Origin: Trogon surrucura
Lineage: Eukaryota > Chordata > Aves > Trogoniformes > Trogonidae
Direction of reading: 5' to 3'
Assembly: GCA_020746105.1 (NCBI GenBank)
Contig: CM036621.1
Span: forward strand, 48,394,264-48,458,263
DNA: 64,000 bases
The notes under the pieces were generated by a model. The model worked only from the letters and a program-made list of their open reading frames with translations. It did no database searches and had not been told where the DNA came from. Numbering within the stretch: the first letter of the stretch is position 1; the number at the start of each line of letters is the position of its first letter. The position numbers were made by a program, and so were the translations under genes. Positions 6,279 through 55,600 of this stretch are shown here, piece after piece.

Positions 6279-7870
6279 CATAGAATCATAGAATCATAGA
6301 ATGTTAGGGATTGGAAGGGACCTCGAAAGATCATCAAGTCCAATCCCCCTGCCAGAGCAGGAATGCCTAGACTATGGCCCACAGGAACGTGTCCAGGCAG
6401 GTCTTGAATGTCTCCAGAGAAGGAGACTCCACAACCTCTCTGGGCAGCCTGTTCCAGGGCTCCGTCACCCTCACTGAGAAGAAGTTTCTTCTCGAGTTTA
6501 AGCGGAACCTCTTATGTTCCAGTTTCAGCCCATTACCCCTTGTCCTATCAGTGGTTGTCACCGAGAAGAGCCTGGTTTCATCCTCATGACACTCCCCCTT
6601 GATATATTTGTAAACATTAATGAGGTCACCCCTCAGCCTCCTCTTCTCCAAACTAAAGAGCCCCAGCTCCCTCAGCCTTTTCTCATAAGGGAGATGCTCC
6701 ACTCCCTTAATCATCCTAGTTGCCCTGTGCTGGACTCTCTCCAGCAGTTCCCTGTCTTTCTTGAACTGAGGGGCCCAGAACTGGACACAGTATTCCAGAT
6801 GGGGTCTCACCAGGGCAGAGTAGAGGGGAAGGAGAACCTCTCTCGACCTACTAACCACCCCCCTTCTAATACACCCCAGGATGCCATTGGCCTTCCTGGC
6901 CACAAGGGCACAGTGCTGGCTCATGGTCATCCTGCTGTCCACCAAGACTCCCAGGTCCCTTTCCCCTGTGCTGCTCTCTAATAAGTCATTCCCCAACTTA
7001 TACTGGAACCTGGGGTTGTTCCTACCCAGATGCAAGACCCTACATTTACCCTTGTTGTATTTCATTAAATTTTTCCCCGCCCAACGCTCCAGCCTGTCCA
7101 GGTCTCGCTGGATGGCAGCACAGCCTGCTGGTGTGTCAGCCACTCCTCCCAGCTTGGTGTCATCAGCAAACTTGCTGATAGTACTCTCTAGTCCCTCATC
7201 CAAGTCATCGATGAATATATTGAATAATACTGGTCCCAGTACCGACCCTTGAGGCACTCCACTGGATACAGGTCTCCAAACAGACTCCGCCCCATTGACC
7301 ACAACTCTTTGGCTTCTTCCCCTTAGCCAGTTCGCAGTCCACCTCACTACCCGAGAGTCTAGACCACACTTCCTCAGTTTAGCAGCAAGGATGCTGTGGG
7401 AGACTGTGTCAAATGCTTTACTGAAGTCAAGGCAGACCACATCCACCGCTCTGCCATCATCTATCCACCTTGTTATATCCTCATAAAAGGCTATGAGGTT
7501 AGTCAAGCACGACTTCCCTTTGGTGAAGCCATGTTGACTGTCTCTAATGACCCTCTTATCCCTGATATGCCTTGAGATGGCACCAAGGATAAGTCGTTCC
7601 ATCACTTTCCCAGGGATGGAGGTGAGGCTGACCGGTCTATAGTTACCCGGGTCCTCCTTCTTGCCCTTTTTGAAGACTGGAGTGACATTTGCTTCCCTCC
7701 AGTCCTCAGGCACCTCTCCCGTCTCCCAAGACTTGGCAAAGATGATGGAGAGTGGTCTAGCAATGACATCAGCCAGCTCCCTCAGCACCCGTGGGTGCAT
7801 CCCGTCTGGACCCATGGATTTATGGATGTCCAGATTTACCATTGTTCCAAGTCTGTCAGGTACTTGCTGA
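6279..7870 (-). mobile_element. CR1 LINE, 5'-truncated, with open reverse-transcriptase frame
   Basis: The minus-strand frame from 7842 to 6367 gives 491 codons without a stop. It carries CR1 reverse-transcriptase motifs: [17 protein letters not shown] near residues 7-23, NYRPVSLTS near 67-75, DFSKAFD near 139-145, [11 protein letters not shown] near 194-204 and the catalytic FADD near 225-228. It ends with the family C-terminus [18 protein letters not shown]. The 3' end carries three copies of the ATTCTATG-type terminal repeat (6279-6302, seen as CATAGAAT on the plus strand). The endonuclease domain and ORF1 are missing. The exact 5' border (about 7842-7910) is uncertain. An intact frame suggests a fairly young copy. 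Confidence 0.95.
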
Positions 7871-8767
7871 AATTGTTGACTAAAGAAAATCTTAAACGCC
7901 TTTCAGACTCAGCCTGCGGGCAAGAAAAAAGCACAAACGTAAAGAAATATCTGACAGACTGTAAATTGCAGCTGATTTATATTCTGTGGCCCCACCTGAG
8001 CTGCAATAGAAAGAATTGTGTCTTGCAATCAGGCAGTTGCTATATGTGTATTTGATTCTGCTAAACCAAATGGAAAAACCTTTGAATCCCCTTCAGCAGG
8101 TTGAGAGATGACTCGGTCACCAAACTTAGACTCCCAGCCTCAGTACATGCAGTGTTATACAAGCAGCACATGCGTTTGAAGTGTATTTGACACAAAGATT
8201 GATTTGTGCTGGCTCACTTACTGGACATTTATTTGTTGCATGTTGCAAAATCACATCCCGTTAATCTCCTGACAGCTGCTCTTCTCTGCTGTGCGCTGTG
8301 GTGTGAGCTACACCTGCATTACTCTCACCCTGTGATGAGGAATGGGCAGTTTCTAACCTAACTGCGTGGTCTCAGTTTCCTCTATATCGTCATTCCCAGG
8401 TTCTGTGGGATGTTTTTCCAGATATCTCATATATGGTTTGCAGTGGGGGAGACAAGATGTTCATAAACACTTAGCAGCCGGGAGACATAAGATGGGATTT
8501 TTCCAGAGCACTTACCCTGTGAACTCCACTTCTCTTGAAACAAGGAGGGAATGATCTCAATTTCCATGGGTCAGGGTTAGAGCAACAACAGGAGTTTTGT
8601 AAAACCCCACAGATGAAGCCAAGATTTCAGCATTCACCATTCTGAATTCTCTTTGAAGACAGGAAGGAAAATGCCTACAAAAGACCCTAAATGAACGTAA
8701 AATTTTCCCCGTTCATTTCAGCATACAAAGTGGGAGCAGAGAGCTCTTGCCTAAATGGTCCTGCCTC

Positions 8768-43611: not shown

Positions 43612-46600
43612 TCTCAAAATCTCCATTAGACTTTATTTAAAAGTTCTTTGTATAGACTTCCTGACACAGAATCCACAATAAAAATAAAATCCCCCCTCCC
43701 ACCCGCCACCTCCCCTCCCCAAATTGCTTTGCTTTTTATTTTATAAAACACATAACATTAAAAGAATGCCAGAGGCATCCTACACCACAATTTAAAAATT
43801 TTGTTAACTGAGGCCTTGGTCCCAGCAGTGCATTTGCATTCGGAAACCTTGCTTCCTTTTTCTTGCTAGTTCGGTTGGCCACATGTTACAAATGCATACA
43901 AGAGATCTAGTTTGAAATCTAATGCAGCAAAAGGAGAAAAAAAAAAAAAAAACAAAAAAGGAAGAATGGAAAATTGAACTGCTTGTTCATCAGAATTAGC
44001 TATGCTCTTACATGAAGGCTTCTCCTGTAAAGTTATGCTCAGTTATGAAAATGATAAAAGCAAGCATGTAACAGTTGCAGTGAAATTATTATGATTTTTT
44101 TTGTCTCGTTTTTACGGTGCCTTAGACAGGCGGACTGCCAGAACCTGAAAGAAAGGGTAATTTAGAGATGTGTCGAGAGACAATAACAATCTGCAATTAG
44201 GTAAATATTTGGCAATGTTGAAGCTATACAATATAACCTGGACACTTGTAGCACTCAGTCCACAAACAGTTTAGCACCATATTGATAGGTCATGCAGCAA
44301 AACGCTTTCTTCAAGGTTTGCTTGGAAGTTAAAAGCAGGAAATAGTGCAGTGCAAGGTAGTCTATACCCTTAGCTTCTACAGGGGTAAGGTGGCAATGGC
44401 TGATGCTCCTGGTTGTCTCAGAGGTATGTGTTGGCAGGTCGCTGGCTCTATGTTCCTATCGTCGCCACCATACCGGGGTTGATGTTACCTGAAAAGGTTT
44501 GATGGAGAGAGAGAAAATAAAGGAGGTTATTCCATGCATGGAAGGATAAATGGAGGTCATTGCCAGGACCTGCTGTGGAGTCTGGAGCACTACAGCCATG
44601 ACTGGAAATACACTGGACCGGGCTGGCCCTCTCTCCAGCCACGTGTATGCTGCTTACCAGGCACACAAACTTTTTCACATTCTTTCTGTGTGTCAAATCT
44701 GTTCTCGTTGCCTCCGCAGCCGCCGTACCAGAAGCGGGCGCAGCTCTTGGTCTCAGGATCATAGTACCATTTCAGCTTAAAGTTCCTGCAGGTCCCCTCG
44801 TCTTTTTGCAGCTGGCAGATATCTGTGACTGCAGACAAAAGCAGGAGCAAGAAGAGTCAGTAACACCACCCCTGGGTGAAACAGAGTCTCTCTGAATCTA
44901 TCTGTATGGCAGAGAAATGCCTGTGAGCAGGGCTGGAGTGCAAGCTCAGAAAGAGCAACCACGGCATAGGCTTTGTACATCTCTTGTGACTATATCCCAT
45001 CCCTTAATTTGCAAAGGTCTTTCTTTGGAGGTCACCAGCCCTGATGCACAGGCCCTTGGCTGTGTTGCTCTCACGCATCCAAGGAGTGATGCTAAGATGA
45101 GGGAAGGGTGCTGCACGGCACCGGTTGTCTGCAGATCCCCTGGATTTGCAGGAAATGAGTTGGCAGGTCTCAGAACTGGGAGAGATCTGGGTGGGCTGCA
45201 GGGGAAAAAAGTATTTGCACCATCATTTTCCCATTAAAAATACTTGCTTCCTTCAAAAAGAGACATCTTCTATGTGAAGATGCTTCTGGACCTACTATGC
45301 ATTGGCCCATGGCATTCTGCATCTCTCGCTGGGTGAGAGGAGAACAAAATAACAAAGTCCTTGGATGTATTAAAATGAAATTGGCACATAAATTTTAAAA
45401 AAGATAGAAATCTGGTATTAGCCACTAATCTGTCATCAAGTCACAAACAAGGCATCCCTTGCACACAGGGATGCAGCAGCAATCAGTGACACCTCTGTGC
45501 AGCATAGAGTAACCATCAGCCATCACAGTTTGCCCTGGAAAAGCCTTGTTACCATAGAATCATAGAATGGTTTGGGTTGGAAGGAACCTTACAGACCATC
45601 TAGTTCCAACCCCTCAGCCTTGGGCAGGGATCATAGCCCTAAGTTAGGCAGATCCCAAAATTTCTGGTGTTGTGCTCATCACTGCCACTTATCAGTGGTT
45701 TGGCTTCAAGCTGCTGGTGCATGAGTGAAAACCCTAAGTCATCAGTCAAACGAGTAAATCAGTAAAGCAACCAGCACTGGGAAATCAATGTGAGGGAAAC
45801 AAGGAGTCAGACGAGCAAAGTGTAGAGTTCCTTTTACTAAAGGAGTGCTTGCAACCAGGATTCCTTTTTTAATTAAGAAAAAAAAAAAAAAAAGTCATTT
45901 GCTTTCTTTTATTTCCAAAAGCAGAGCTAAGTCCAGCAATGGCTGCTGGGGAAACTCAGGACTGGAAGTTATCTTCTGATAATCTTGCCTTAGGATCAAT
46001 CATGCCTTTTGTAAACTAGGTGCCATAAATCAAGCTACTGTCTGAAATGGTGGGTAACAGCCCAGAGCCTCCTGCAGTCTTCTAGTAATCGCGCAGGGCC
46101 CCAGAAATAGCTCTCTGGTAAACAGCAAAGGTGCCTGAAGTAGCTGTGATCCTCAGACCGCTCACTTGAAGGCAGGATTTGGTGAGATTGAGAGCTCAGT
46201 GCTCATGAAAAATAATTTCATACTCGTTTTTCTATGATTCTGCCTATTCCAAGCAATAAGAAAAAGCAATCAGCCACTAATGACAAGGTGCTGAAAGATC
46301 TTACCAGGTCTCTGCCCTACCAGAAAGAGAGTGAACAGAGGAAAGAATATTTAGATAGAGGATGAATACGCAAAAAGGTGCATTTGCCAACAAGTTTCTC
46401 TGGGTTCTGATGAAAGCAATTCATGCTAAACCCTTCTAAAGTTTTCATGGGAAAAAGGACGGCAGAGGGTTATCCCTGAAATACCAACTAGAAAGTAGGT
46501 CTGGCAACAGACCGTGGGCACTAAGAAAGTTCCAGCGGTGGGTTTACTTTACAGGAAATTGCGGCTGGTGCTGGCAGCCGCCCAGAGCCCAGGAACGCCG

Positions 46601-49600
46601 TGGTGAGGCCGGGATGCACCGGGGATAGGCACGGAAATACCCAGACCAGCGTCACGGACATCCCAGCCACAGGTATGCTTCTTGGTAGACCCTGCCAAAC
46701 GTCTCAACCCTTCCTGCTTACTCTTTTTAAGTGCATTTTTTCCCCCTCTTCCTCTGCAGGCAGGAGTCCCTCTGTGTCGTGAGTGACTGAACAGATCACT
46801 GCCAGAACACCACTGTGGTCGCAGGAGTCAGGCTCGAGTGGTCTGTGCTGCGGTCTTGGTGGAGGTTGGGTGGTTTGTTTGAGCAGTGGTTTACTGCTTA
46901 GAGAGGAGAGGCTGGGAATATTTCTTATCTGAGAGAGGAGACATGTCTGAAGAGACGCTCCTGCCTGTTATCCTGTTCTAAATGCAGCTTTTTGAAGTAG
47001 GATTTCTTTTGTTAATATCCATTTTTTCCTTCAGATTTGAAATCAATATTGACCCTCCAATTTAGTTGGTCATGGTAAAATATATACACACATATATATA
47101 TATATATGTAAGTTAAAAATTAAATATTATCACAATATTTAAAAGGCTCCTAATGGGAGGTGGGTCCGGTGCATGTTTTTGGACCCAAAGTGCCCTAGGA
47201 TTTGGGAAACGAGCTCATTTCTCAGAGTTGCACCTTGCTCTGGTATGGGCTGAACTGAGAGCCCGACCCAACGCCCAGCTGCATGTGAACTCCCATGTCT
47301 CTTTTTCCATGGTGGATTCAAGCTCTGGTTTTGCAGAAAATGAAAAGAGAATAACGTATTGAATAGAGCAGGGCAGGCAGAGACGCAAGCGTCCCTCCAG
47401 GGCCCCTCAGTTGCTTTTCTTGACTATCTGCCCACAGCAGAACAGTGCCAAGTTCATGAAATATCACTTTATCCTGAACAACAGTTGCTGGAAACATCAT
47501 CAAGGCACATGACGATGATCTGAAGGGGCCGGTCTAACAGAAACACGCTCTCTCTGGAGAAAAACACATCAGGGAGGCTTCCCTGCACGGTGAGGATGAA
47601 ATCCTGCTCTAGATGAAACTACAGGTTTCTGCACAAGCCATATGCTGCTTCCTCTGGCTGAAAAGTCCTCAGACTGCAACCAATGGATCTTTGTCCATGA
47701 TGCCCCTTTGCAGCCCAGAAGCAACTTGCAATCCCCTTTTGCAAGCAGCTGCCACCCCAGGCATCTCCATGGCTGGTGGTGGTCTCCTCCTCACTTGCCT
47801 GCATGCTTCTGCTGGGGCACCAACAGCTGGACTTAAGCTGCCAGTGACAAAAAAAGGTCTGAGGTTTCCCTCCCATCTCTGCCAAAGGGTCTGAGGCTGC
47901 TATGATAGCAAGGCTTTGCTGGGGTCAGTTTCCCATCCCAACTCCTTGCTGTACCAACACAGGTGATAACAATTCTCTACTTCATTCCTGGGTCTTGAAG
48001 AGGTTTGCAAACCCAACCCCTTAATCACAGAAACTCTTTGAGGAGAGGAGATTGTTGCTGTTTTCTAGTGTGGCCTTCCCTCAAGTTCAATTTTTATCTT
48101 TTTGATGCAAAAGGAAAACATCTACACACAAGACCTGAGCCTTGTGGAGTAATTTTCCATCCTGTGTTTTTGTTACAGGCAGAGCAACATTTGCAATCCT
48201 CTGCATCTCAGCAAAGGCACACCACTGAATGGTGGCGTCGGTTGGTCATGCAGTGATAACATGAATTGCTCTGGGACCGCGCCACGCTCCAGCTCAGCAA
48301 ACCCATGCTTCTGACGAAATCCAGTGCCCGATTTTGCTGTATAGCTGTGGTCTGCACTCATGTTGTGCAAACACAACACGTCCTGGTCTGACAACACACA
48401 TGCAAAAGGTGAGTTGCTCATGCAAAGCAGATGGTAGGGCATGGTCATGTCAAGGAATGAATGAAACCCACGTCTATGCTACTGGTGATCTTGTATCGGA
48501 CAAGCTTGGATGCATGCTGTGAAAAGGTCGAGATGAAATAATGGATTTGCTTTGATTTGTGATTATTCAAATTTTTGGAGGTGTTACCTGATGATAATCT
48601 TTTTTCAGGGGGTGGCTGCTGCATGGCTTTCTCAGCTGCTGCTGGAGGAAAAAGTGCGTGGGTTTGGATTTTAAATTATGTTTTCTCTCTGATCCAAACA
48701 TTATTAGAATATGATAAAATAAAAATGGATTAATCCGCATGTGGTACTTACATGGTTTTAAGCATTTGCTAATGCACTCAGCTTCGGCCTCAAATCTATT
48801 GGCATTACCACCACAGCCACCATACCAACCCTGGCTGCAGATCTTGTTTTTGTAGTCAAAGAACCACACAATCTGATAGTCCTTGCACTGCATGCCCATG
48901 TCAAAGTCCAGCAAGCAAGGGTCTGGCCCATCTGCATGTCAAAAGGTGCAAAGGTTAAGCGACTCTGAAAGGGTTAAAGGCTGAAAAAGCAAAGAGAATT
49001 TAAAAAAAAAAAAAGCCCGGTAAAGGACTGGTGGCATTTCTTTGTCTTGTGATTTCTCTTGCTGAGTGCAAACCTTCCCCAGGCTCCAGCTTGCTTCTCT
49101 CTGCTCTTGATTTCATGATGCTTCCAAGCCCCAACTCCCCAGACCAAGGTGGTGGAAGCACTTTACTCCTTGCTGGTGGGGTCAGGATCAGCCCCTCACA
49201 CAACTCCCTTCATCTATATTCAAAGCTATTTTTCTTGGCAATAACTTTTAATCCTTAAGTGTGTTTATGTTAGCTCTAAAGGCAAGCTGCACCTGGTTGA
49301 TTTTAAGGCTTGATGAGGATTTAAACATATGTTTCTTTCCTGCCCAGAAATGATAATTTAGGTCCAAATCCCAGAGTTTTTTATTAGCAAAGATAGGCTG
49401 TCTGTGTGAGCAGCTGCTTTGCCTTAATGAAGAGGGTAGATAGAATTCGGGGCTTTCTCTAATGTCTTTTGAAAGATGTACGCATGGATCTCCCCCATCG
49501 CACAGAGAACTAGAGAAGACTCACCTAAACAAACCATTCCAAATCCTTGGCCCTGTTTAATGAATTTAGCATGTTGAAAAACTTCAAATTAGCATTCTGG

Positions 49601-52600
49601 GGGAACATTGCCCCCAAATTGCTGTCTGCCATGAGTCCTTGGGCAGAGACTTTTGCTGCAAGTGGGTCAACAAGAGGAGATGAGATACAGAGGTCTGCGC
49701 TGAAGTGCAGAGTGAGCACACAGCACATCCATTTTCCTTTGGGCAGACCTACACTAGTCTACAACACTTTGTTTCCGAAAGGCTGGCACACAAGAGGTTA
49801 GAAAAAGCCATGGGAGTTTGTGTAGCCCAGTGGGGACAAGCCAGATGAAGGATTCAGAAGGGATGACAGTGCCAGGGAGAGAAACCAAATAACTGGGAAC
49901 ACATGGAAAGGTGAAGGTTGGGATGATGGGACACGCAGCAAGGCAGAAATGAGACAATTCTTGCCTGGCACAAGTCCTCAGCCCCTCCATTGCGGCAAGC
50001 TCCACTGGTACCACCAGCCAGGCATGACATCCATGCTCATCCTTTTCAATGTGAGCAGCCAGACCCCAGCAGCAGCTTTGCAGCTCTTATTGGCTGAACA
50101 CACTGAGCAGCAGCATCTCCCTATGCTCTCAAGTCACCTCAGGGAGAAAATGAGCCACAGTGCAAGCAAAATGCTTAAAGAAAAGCATAAGAGTGATGAT
50201 TCATGGGTGAGTTTGGATGCCAGATCCATAGCTGATGCCTGTGATAGGGCTGTGCTGCTTTATGAAGGTTGAAAACCCTTCCAGACCCTTGAAGGAAGGG
50301 CTGCAGCCTGACATTTATGGTGTAGTAGCACCAATATAATGAGCTTGATGTCAACAAAAGCAATGAGATGATGTATTAACAATTATGGTGGTTACAGGTT
50401 ATTAACACAGGTTAATGGGATTAACAGCAGAGTAGGGGCTGACAGGATGCTCATTGAGCAGTTCACTACATACACCACTGGTGGCAGAAAAACGGGATGG
50501 GCAGATGGAGGGAGGTTACAAATTAGCCAAATTTATGCAAACGTTTGACAGTAACTCCCCTGCGATCCCTGGCTGTTGGCCAAGCCCTTGTGGAGAGCTG
50601 TGGCCAAGACCTATTCTTCGCCCCAGATGGGAAAAGAGGGAATGAGTAAGCATCAGGCAATGTTCTCCTTCTATAGATGTTGAGGAGGCCATGGGGCACA
50701 GCTTGTACCTGGAGAGTGGCCTGTGCTTGGGCCCTGGCTCATGTCCCATCATTGCAACGGAAACAGGACCTGGTTTGAGTTCCCCATGAAGGTTGTGGCA
50801 ACTTCAGGGGGCTCTGGATCCAGCATGGGTCAGAGACCCCAATACAGGTCTCAGACCCACATGGCCAAGGATGTCATCTAGGTCATGATCTGTTGGTTCT
50901 GCAAAGCAAAGGACTTGTGGATCCTTTGGTGAGGCTCTGAGAAAGGATGGGTTTATGAGTGAGCAAACAGAAGACTGGTGCAAATGGCTGGGCTCTCCGT
51001 AGGGATCCTGGCAGAGCTCAACACTCCCACCACTGCCCGTACTCACCACTCTCAGGCCCTTCCAGTGGCTCAGTGTTGAGCATCATGTTGGCCAGGGACA
51101 CCTTGGCCTGTGCCGTGGTCTCTGGAGGGAGAAGAAGCAAAGGAGTCAGCCAAGGGGCAGGGGATCTGCAGCAGCGCCCTCGGCGCAGTCATAAACAAAC
51201 TCATTGGCCCCAGCTCCAGCATGAGGGACGCACACAAATATGCAGGAGTCAGGTCTGGATCTATTTACCCCAGTACATATGTTGCAGAAATGTTTATTTG
51301 ATGCAGCTGATGGGATGAGTAATCCACAACTGCCCCGCCGTGCTGGGATGGGTTCACCTTGCTCTCCCCAGCCAGAGGTTCTGCTGAGCAGTTGGGCTCT
51401 TCCTTAGGGATGACTGTGAAGGAGCATCCCCAGGACCCCACAGAACTCTTTTGGGTGGCCCCTGCTTGTCCCACAGCGTGCAACTGGGGGGCTCTGAAGG
51501 AGCAGATGTGGCCTCTCTGTAGCCAGTTTAGCTTTGCTCCTCTGGTCTTAGAAATGACGGAAAACAAATGGCATCCTCCAGGGGAGCAAGTAGTCCATGA
51601 TGGATCTTCTCTTGTTCCCCCATAGCCCTGGAGGACTATCCATATATTGCACACCTCTCCCTGACCACGCTTCTCCCATCATGGCCTCACATTCCTCCAA
51701 GAACTGTGTTGTTGAGGACCATCACAGGGAGAAGAAATTCCTTGTGATGGGAAGGAGAACATGGTTCATATTGCAGCATGCCCCTTTCCAGAGCAACCTG
51801 TGGATCATTTTCCATGGGGCTGGAGGGCAGGAGGGTGCTGCAGCCACAGGAAGGATTGGATTTGTTTTTCTCTGGTGGAAGGTATGGGTGTGGGTAAGGG
51901 GAACAGTCCTACACAGAATCACAGAATCACAGAATGTTAAAGGTTGGAAGGGACCTTAAAGATCATCCAGTCCAACCCCCCTGCCAGAGCAGGATCACCT
52001 ACAGTAGAGCGCACAGGAACGCGTCCAGGCGGGTTTTGAATGTCTCAAGAGAAGGAGATTCCACAACCTCCCTGGGCAGCCTGTTCCAGTGCTCGGTCAC
52101 CCTTACAGTAAAAAAGTTTTTCCTCATATTTTTCTGGAACCTCCTGTGTTCCAGTTTCCACCCATTGCCCCTTGTCCTGTCAGTGGATGCCGCTGAAAAG
52201 AGCCTGGCTCCATCCTCCTGACATTCCCCCTTGACATATTTATAAACATTGATGAGGTCACCCCTCAGCCTCCTCTTCTCCAAGCTAAAGAGATCCAGCT
52301 CCTTCAGCCTTTCCTCATAAGGGAGATGTTCCACTCCCTTCACCATCTTTGTGGCTCTACGCTGGACTCTCTCAAGCAGCTCCCTGTCCTTCCCCTTTGA
52401 GATTTGCTCTGAGGGAAATGCAGCTTCCCCAGGCATTGAGAGCATCAACCCAGTGTGTGCAAACGTTACTTCTACACACTGATGTCTTTTCTCAACATTT
52501 TTGTGGGCATGTTTATTGCTTGTGAAGGTAAGAGACTTCAGACCTGATCCAAAACCACTGAAGCCAATGGAAAGGCTCTCCGCAGGCACTGAAAGTGGCT

Positions 52601-55600
52601 CTAAAGTGCCAGAAGCAGCCAAATGTAGCACTGGCAGGACCAGTGCAAAGTTCTTCACACTGCCAAGGCAAGTCACCTCTATGCCAAAGTATATATAAAG
52701 AAAATTGGCTGTGCCTTACATACTTTCGCCATGCCAAAGAGTTTGGTGAGGTTTACATGTGATCTGTAAACATGGAGCTTGAGTCCCCAAAGAACTAAAT
52801 CCTCCATTTAACTTTTTTTTCTTGGGGTTTTTTTGATGATTTTTTTTTTTAGATAATGTAGTATACAGAGCACATAGGTGGCTATGGAAATGGCGATTGG
52901 AAAAGATTTTCTTGCTTATTTTGAAATCAGGCTAGACTGAATTTACTCTGTGTTAACACAGTTTAACTCGTATTATTAATTACAGCAATGTTGGCTGGAC
53001 CCCACCAAGACCCCCTGTACAAACCCTGCTATGGGACTGGTGTTAATTCTCCCACAGTCCATGTCCATTTAACACCCACAAAGTTACATTTGCCAAAAAA
53101 CCACATTTGCAGCGTTTCATAACCAGGTCCTGCTGCTTGTTCAAAGAATGGCAGACATGCAGCAACACAGCTGGACATTACCAGAGCTGGGATCGCTGGT
53201 ACCAACTGATTCCCCATCCCTTATGTGTGTTTTCTCTCCTACTTTTTGTGCCCATTTTATGAAAAAAAAAAAAAAAGTTTTTGTGTTTTCCTCAACAGGT
53301 ACTTACTTGTGCTGAACGTCCCTGCGTAGGTTACTTTGGGTTGGGATTTCTGGTAGCCGGTGATGACGACAAGGTATTTCTGTCCACTTTGGAGTCCTCG
53401 GATGATGTGCTCAGTGCCGGTGAGGTTTTGCTTTTGCACTAGAGAGTGGTCGTGTGCTAAGGTGACGGTGATATCAAAAGCGTAGGCGCTGTGTTGCTCG
53501 GGGCTGGCCCAGCGCAGCCTGGCACTGTTCTCAGTGACGTCGGTGATCTGGATGTCGTGGGTCTTTGCTGCAATGCAAAAGCAGAAAAGAAAGACGATGT
53601 GAGGGCTTGAGCAGGAAAGGTCTTAAGGAAAATGTATCTCAGTGCTGTCATTCCCAGGCTGAAGCAAACAAACTTTTCCACAGCCATTTGTGACTTTGTT
53701 ACCTCCAACACCTGACCCAGCACAGTGCATGGAGGCACTTTTTTCATAGCCTAGATGATTTACCAAGGGGTTTATTTATTATTTTAAAAATCTGCTGCAA
53801 TCTAGCAAATGAAAGCAATTTTTTTTACGAGATTTACACAGCCTGAAATGTGATTCCCAGCACAACTTTCCCAACAACTGTAAACATGTCCAGTCAGATC
53901 CCTCCCTAGGGTGCAATGAACTGCCAAAGACCTTCAAGCAAATCCTGCTTAAGGTCGAACATAACCTTAGACAGATCAAAGAAGCTATTAGGGAAAGGTT
54001 TTCCTGCTATGGCAGAATATTGAATAATACCTTTATAAATGTTGCTCAGAAGCAACAGTGGAGCAAGATATACCCAGCAATGTTTGTTCCCCACAAGCCA
54101 ATGAAAGCCTTAACCTTGCAAGAACTGATTGCTCTTATTTATTTTTATTTATTATTTATATTGGGACATGCACTCATTGACTGCTTAAGCATCCTTGTGC
54201 TTCAAACATATTACAAAAACATCAGTTCTGGGCCCCACAGTTCAAGAAGGACAAGGGACTACTGGAGAGAGCCCAGCACAGGGCCACTGAGATGGTGAGG
54301 GGACTGGAGCACCTCCCGTACAAGTAAAGGCTGAGGAAGCTGGGTCTGTTTAGATTGGAGAAGAGGAGAGGGAGGATCTCATCAATGCTTATAAATATCT
54401 AAAGCATGGATGTCAGGAGGATGAGGACAGACTTTTCTCAGTTGTGTCCAGTGACAAGGCAATTGGCAATGGTCATAAACTGGAAAACAGGAAGTTCAAC
54501 CTAAACACAATGAGATACTTCTTTAATATGAGGGTGACAGAGCAGTGAAACAGGCTACCCAGGAGAAGCTGTGGAGTCTCTGCCTCCGGAGACCTTCAAA
54601 ACCTGCCTGGACATGTGCCTGTGGTCCAGGGGATCCTCCTGTGGCAGCGAGGTTAACTAGACAATCTTTAGACGTCTCTTCCAACCCCTACCATTCTGTG
54701 ATTTTGTGATTCTGTGAAAAATCCTTTGGGAAAACTCCTTGTAAAAGCCCATGGGAAAAGATAAACTTGCTTCCATGAAAGAGCTTTAGCACTCCCAAAT
54801 AAGGCTCCACACTGATAGTGTGATGTACTAAATGAACTATTTGTATTAGCTGAATTCAAACAAGACTGCAAGGAAAACATAGAAAGCAAATGGGCCACAC
54901 TAGAAAGAGCATGTGTCACTGAACTACTGAACTGGGCAGCAGATGGATTGTGCCATGTTTAGGTGTCCTGCTTTTGTTTTGTCTAGAGGCAGCCTGTCCC
55001 CCCACCCGCTTTTGCATAAAATTCTCGACCCAAACTGACAAAGCCTTAAACCCTCGGCACAGATTTCCAGTTTTGCACCTAAAAACTTGTTTCTGCAAGC
55101 ACAGAACTTGGCCTCTTAATAGCGTTTCCCATAGGAATAACCCCCTTGCAGGGGAAGAAAACCCACAACCCACCAGGAAGCAAGAGGCACTGCTTGCTAG
55201 TGGAGAACCTTTCACGTACCGCCTTGTCTTCTCCTGCCACCTGTCGCGGTGGCCGTGGTGTTTGTGGTGCTGCGGCTCATGGCTTTGGTGTGGGCAGCAG
55301 TGTTTGATGAGCTCTGCGCGGTGAGGTTCACCTGGACCACCGTGGTGGTTGTGGTCTGGTCGGTGGCTCTGGTCTGGGCTGTGGTACTGGCAGTGGTGGT
55401 TCTGGGACTGGTGTTGGTGGTCGCAACAAGCTTGGTGCTGGCAGTGGTGGTTCTAGCACGAGTGTTGGTGCTCACAACAGGCTTGATGGTCCCACTGACT
55501 GTGGTGCTGGCATCAAGGGTCTGGCTTATGGTTGCATCAGCCATGTACCTGTCAAACAAAGCAGCTGATATGGCTTCATTTCCCTCACCTATTTAAGAAG

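Follow-up and report, generated by a model that had tools for sequence, protein, structure and literature searches.

Endotrophin is a fragment from the tail of the collagen VI α3 chain (COL6A3), and work on it concerns fibrosis, insulin resistance, tumour growth and coronary disease. The six cysteines of BPTI have the spacing 8-15-7-12-3, and Kunitz units placed in a row, as in the COL6A3 tail described below, are found in SmCI, boophilin, bikunin and TFPI, none of which is known to be the tail of a collagen. For the chicken chain, a 1989 study by Bonaldo and Colombatti speaks in its title of "Kunitz modules." No description of a tandem Kunitz pair in COL6A3 was found in open-licence PMC papers; the pair is already present in the databases as automatic annotation, Gallus included.

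Among the closest described systems is the human C5 domain with the endotrophin that carries it (structures 1KNT, 2KNT and 13bf). Serine proteases are not inhibited by human C5; when several of its residues were changed, the P1′ Asp among them, it became an inhibitor of trypsin (PMC6436896; PMC13049179). The human Kunitz target is given as residues 3108–3165 in one further report (PMC11821532), and a double change at LM3097 in human constructs abolished the release of endotrophin (PMC13049179).

The 3′ End of COL6A3 in Trogon surrucura

The window, a stretch of 64,000 nucleotides from the genome of T. surrucura, includes the 3′ part of the bird's COL6A3 gene, which encodes two tandem Kunitz domains, here called K1 and K2. 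Residues 2276–3204 of a gull COL6A3 protein (P0021) map to the window in order, with gaps (tblastn), as far as K2; the end of this alignment runs through FN3, K1, linker and K2 in the same order as the window, where the VWA, FN3 and C-terminal Kunitz order of COL6A3 is found. All of the exons lie on the minus strand. The FN3 (C4) exon has the approximate limits 53308..53571 (tblastn with gull P0021 residues 2956–3043, 88.6% identity), and downstream of it is an exon of 75 bp (51047..51121), placed by its AG/GT splice sites, its frame and its alignment to the chains 13bf and 9han; the human counterpart of this segment holds the endotrophin release site. The K1 exon (48752..48931) has 180 bp and phase 1-1, and is followed by a linker exon of either 54 bp (48588..48641) or 51 bp (48588..48638), because the CAG of its acceptor is repeated. 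The K2 exon, of 171 bp and again phase 1-1, is found at 44658..44828, and the last coding exon, with the tail and a TAG stop, at 44448..44488 (splice sites and frame). From the 75-bp exon onward, the five exons are bounded by AG acceptors and GT donors and join in one frame, with phase 1 at these junctions and no stop before the terminal TAG.

Both Kunitz exons match the Pfam profile PF00014 well above its cut-off of 21 bits (K1, 56.6 bits, E 3e-15; K2, 79.6 bits, E 1.9e-22). The cysteines of K2 fit the BPTI spacing, and K1 has all six cysteines with a first loop of nine residues instead of eight. The best COL6A3 match of K2 is 1KNT (E 1e-32); with the same gene, the same C-terminal place and the same tail as human C5, K2 corresponds to the one Kunitz domain of the human chain, and K1 is the extra one. 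Across the whole genome (1,165,559,148 bases in 164 contigs) there are 24 Kunitz matches above the cut-off, K1 and K2 included.

An earlier sequence-only reading of this DNA had assigned the gene to COL6A3 and described two complete six-Cys Kunitz exons sharing the same gene and frame, and the minus-strand exons, splice sites, joined frame, PF00014 matches and gull alignment bear this out. Its limits for K1 were exact. For K2 it gave 44658–44822, of which 44658 is right, whereas the acceptor lies 6 bp beyond 44822. Between the two domains there is indeed a linker exon, and its length, read then as 54 bp, is 54 or 51 bp.

Other Features of the Window

Elsewhere in the window, an open frame of 511 codons on the minus strand (6367–7902) matches the reverse transcriptase profile PF00078 (E 1.4e-33) and belongs to a retroelement, possibly CR1. 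A second minus-strand frame, at 51999–52715 within a COL6A3 intron, gave no Pfam match and has by eye a long string in common with the final part of the 6367–7902 frame. At 55382–55485 a 51-bp unit occurs twice (84% matches) inside a Thr-rich open frame, likewise on the minus strand. A scan of Rfam returned no match.

Distribution of K1

Searching with K1 as the query identified 11 proteins in the single-exon size range, including those of the burrowing owl, a mudskipper, a coral snake and a giant tortoise, and 291 proteins in the full-length range, the best 120 of which were listed. These 120 comprise 118 bird chains, Gallus included, and two papilins. Every one of the 118 bird chains among the matches listed has exactly two Kunitz domains, K1 with a first loop of nine residues and K2 with one of eight; the set was selected by the K1 query and is no survey of prevalence. 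The annotated COL6A3 of other birds (for example Gallus gallus, Falco, Columba) has the same two-Kunitz tail with loops of nine and eight, and differs from the window at the level of residues only.

Outside the birds, a single chain of the coral snake Micrurus (P0004) holds K1 (its start absent), a linker with the length of the 51-bp form, K2 and the tail, and K1, linker and K2 are likewise joined in Periophthalmus P0003. A query alignment of fish, snake and window sequences gave 2353 matches, 120 of them listed; among those listed, Larimichthys P0133 and P0135 have an FN3-like stretch followed by K1, linker and K2, and four teleost tails (P0143, P0144, P0146, P0159) have K1, with its nine-residue loop, followed by K2. 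Many of the remaining matches among these 120 are papilins, SmCI-like or multi-Kunitz proteins. Two public records of COL6A3 chains carry other names: P0069 (Pezoporus wallicus) is entered as collagen alpha-1(XI), and P0135 (Larimichthys crocea) as a papilin precursor.

Origin and Conservation of K1

The relationship of the Kunitz domains was addressed with a tree of 53 rows: 16 of K1, 16 of K2 and 21 other Kunitz domains from the same genome, one of the 22 other genomic matches (C1:106.9 Mb) having been missed by the pattern and left out. The K1 rows, which come from birds, snake and fish, group in a single clade (support 98/98) apart from K2, and all 21 of the other genomic domains fall outside it. 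The K2 rows are split by a long-branch pair in this tree; when the run was repeated with the rows in a different order, a branch (81/75) set them off on one side. The best tree places K1 with four Kunitz exons of the genome (C8:60.68 Mb, C9:2.41 Mb, C13:9.79 Mb and C1:220.3 Mb; 85/79), a position that is not firm, and lacks a joint clade of K1 and K2, which is nevertheless not rejected (p-AU 0.194). Derivation of K1 from K2 through tandem duplication is one possible origin. In two multi-Kunitz proteins of fish, P0187 (Seriola lalandi) and P0246 (Myripristis murdjan), one domain has a first loop of nine residues and is 56–60% identical to K1; judged by this resemblance, such a protein is a possible paralog source of K1.

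Conservation within birds was counted on 57 of the 118 bird rows, one per species and with both papilins excluded. Compared in pairs, the K1 rows are on average 95.9% identical, with 88.5% as the lowest value, and the K2 rows 90.5%, with 74.5% as the lowest; the invariant columns number 43/52 and 32/51, respectively. Measured by identity, constraint on the K1 protein sequence is no weaker than that on K2.

Two solved COL6A3 tails were compared, of which human 13bf is the only one from an identified mammal. In this endotrophin chain, as in chain 9han (3061 residues, with one Kunitz match only), the counterpart of the 75-bp exon joins K2 directly, without K1. In human one Kunitz domain follows this segment, whereas in the trogon K1 and the linker are inserted between them. 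With K1 found in the teleosts, snake and birds of the sample but not in 13bf or 9han, the simplest explanation is that it disappeared on the lineage leading to mammals. The K1–K2 pair would then be older than the split of fishes and tetrapods, and such a loss of K1 is, on this sample, the most likely course of events. The sequence-only reading had put the identity of the two domains at about 40% by hand alignment, and the measured value is 45%. Its statement that human alpha-3(VI) has only the second Kunitz domain (C5) agrees with 13bf. It had regarded the duplication as old, and had suggested a tree of both domains and a search of other vertebrates; the single K1 clade and the presence of K1 in birds, snake and teleosts speak for an old split. 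Of the two outcomes it offered, retention of an old pair or loss of the first copy in mammals, the latter fits best, with K1 present in fish and missing from 13bf and 9han, of which only the human 13bf is identified.

Is K1 a Regular Part of the Chain, and Does It Inhibit?

The annotated chains of other birds and the joined snake protein suggest that in the trogon, too, a single secreted alpha-3(VI) chain would contain both K1 and K2 after splicing. A chance match or pseudo-exon is ruled out by the Pfam scores, splice sites and orthologs, and a recent duplication by the 45% identity, the fish orthologs and the K1 clade. With K2 also present in all 118 listed bird chains, and the K1-linker-K2 order in coral snake and teleosts, K1 is no pseudo-exon; that it should be a functionless one, or have been copied locally from K2 in recent times, is barely conceivable given the open frame, intact splice sites, six cysteines, divergence from K2 and strong conservation, and is already contradicted by the snake and fish orthologs. 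A better case can be made for K1 and the linker as an optional cassette, with most chains carrying K2 alone and K1 being used in some tissues or at some stages. Both exons are in phase 1-1 (180 bp and 51 or 54 bp), so skipping keeps the frame, and annotated chains without the linker exist: three of the 118 bird rows among the matches listed (P0046, P0049, P0088), as well as P0132 and P0217. The greater conservation of K1 than of K2 in birds speaks for regular use, and on balance we consider the cassette unlikely. None of the COL6A3 chains among the matches skips K1, but the searches selected for K1, and this is therefore no evidence against a cassette. Isoform X2 of Gallus has 3214 residues, and K1 with the 54-bp linker accounts for 78; an older chicken COL6A3 database entry has, we presume, about 3137 residues, a shortfall near that length but not exactly equal to it. 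The linker acceptor with its repeated CAG is found at 48636–48650 (minus strand) of the window; in Harpia, and also in Caloenas, annotated isoforms differ only by the one alanine that this repeat provides.

Another reading is that K1 actively inhibits a serine protease and that, through the tandem, collagen VI carries a protease inhibitor. The P1 residue of K1 is Lys in 57/57 bird species, which suits a trypsin inhibitor, and the modelled structure of the P0132 tail, from a sandgrouse, with two Kunitz-like units after FN3 (mean pLDDT 72.4), has among its top structural matches the multi-Kunitz inhibitors SmCI, boophilin and bikunin, besides human C5 (2KNT); the fold search was made with the P0132 model only, the model of K1 alone from the window being weak (mean pLDDT 60.5). 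Against inhibition stand the first loop, nine and not eight residues long in all 118 bird rows among the matches listed, and the P1′ residue, which is Asp in 55/57 bird species (Asn in two, both cormorants) and acidic in 13 of the 14 other K1 rows, Takifugu having Gly. In PMC6436896, P1′ Asp is among the residues changed to make human C5 inhibitory. From the acidic P1′ and the longer loop K1 is predicted not to inhibit trypsin, and we hold an active inhibitor to be improbable. K1 is predicted instead to be a non-inhibitory binding module, giving the released fragment a second contact beside K2 (C5).

Endotrophin Release and the Two-Kunitz Tail

Counting back on the alignment, with the start of 1KNT taken as residue 3108, the human L3097-M3098 pair falls four and three residues before TEPL. 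By the same count from the Kunitz domain, this position in the window would be occupied by Met-Met (51081..51086, minus strand, read from 51086 to 51081), upstream of K1; the placement is one of alignment. Since the human release site maps upstream of K1, bird endotrophin is predicted to have two Kunitz heads: with a cut within the 75-bp-exon segment, as in human, the freed fragment would consist of K1, the short linker and K2, with 157 residues and a computed mass of 17.6 kDa. Instead of Leu-Met, the site reads Met-Met in the window and Leu-Val in 9han, and the cut may therefore not be conserved. The linker contains a dibasic pair in 50/57 birds, so a cut between K1 and K2 is also possible.

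Taken jointly, we lean towards a reading in which K1 is ancient and was likely lost in an ancestor of mammals, bird endotrophin is two-headed, and K1 acts as a non-inhibitory binding module. A bolder proposal, which we put forward tentatively and think somewhat less probable than its opposite, is that the ancestral endotrophin of bony vertebrates was a two-headed, non-inhibitory tandem-Kunitz signal still made by birds, reptiles and fish, the human form being a mammalian truncation without the more conserved head. If non-mammals do release a two-Kunitz form, the human fragment would be a reduced version of it, and results obtained in chicken or fish would not be directly transferable; K1, as the better conserved of the two domains, would offer a natural comparison for finding the binding partners of C5.
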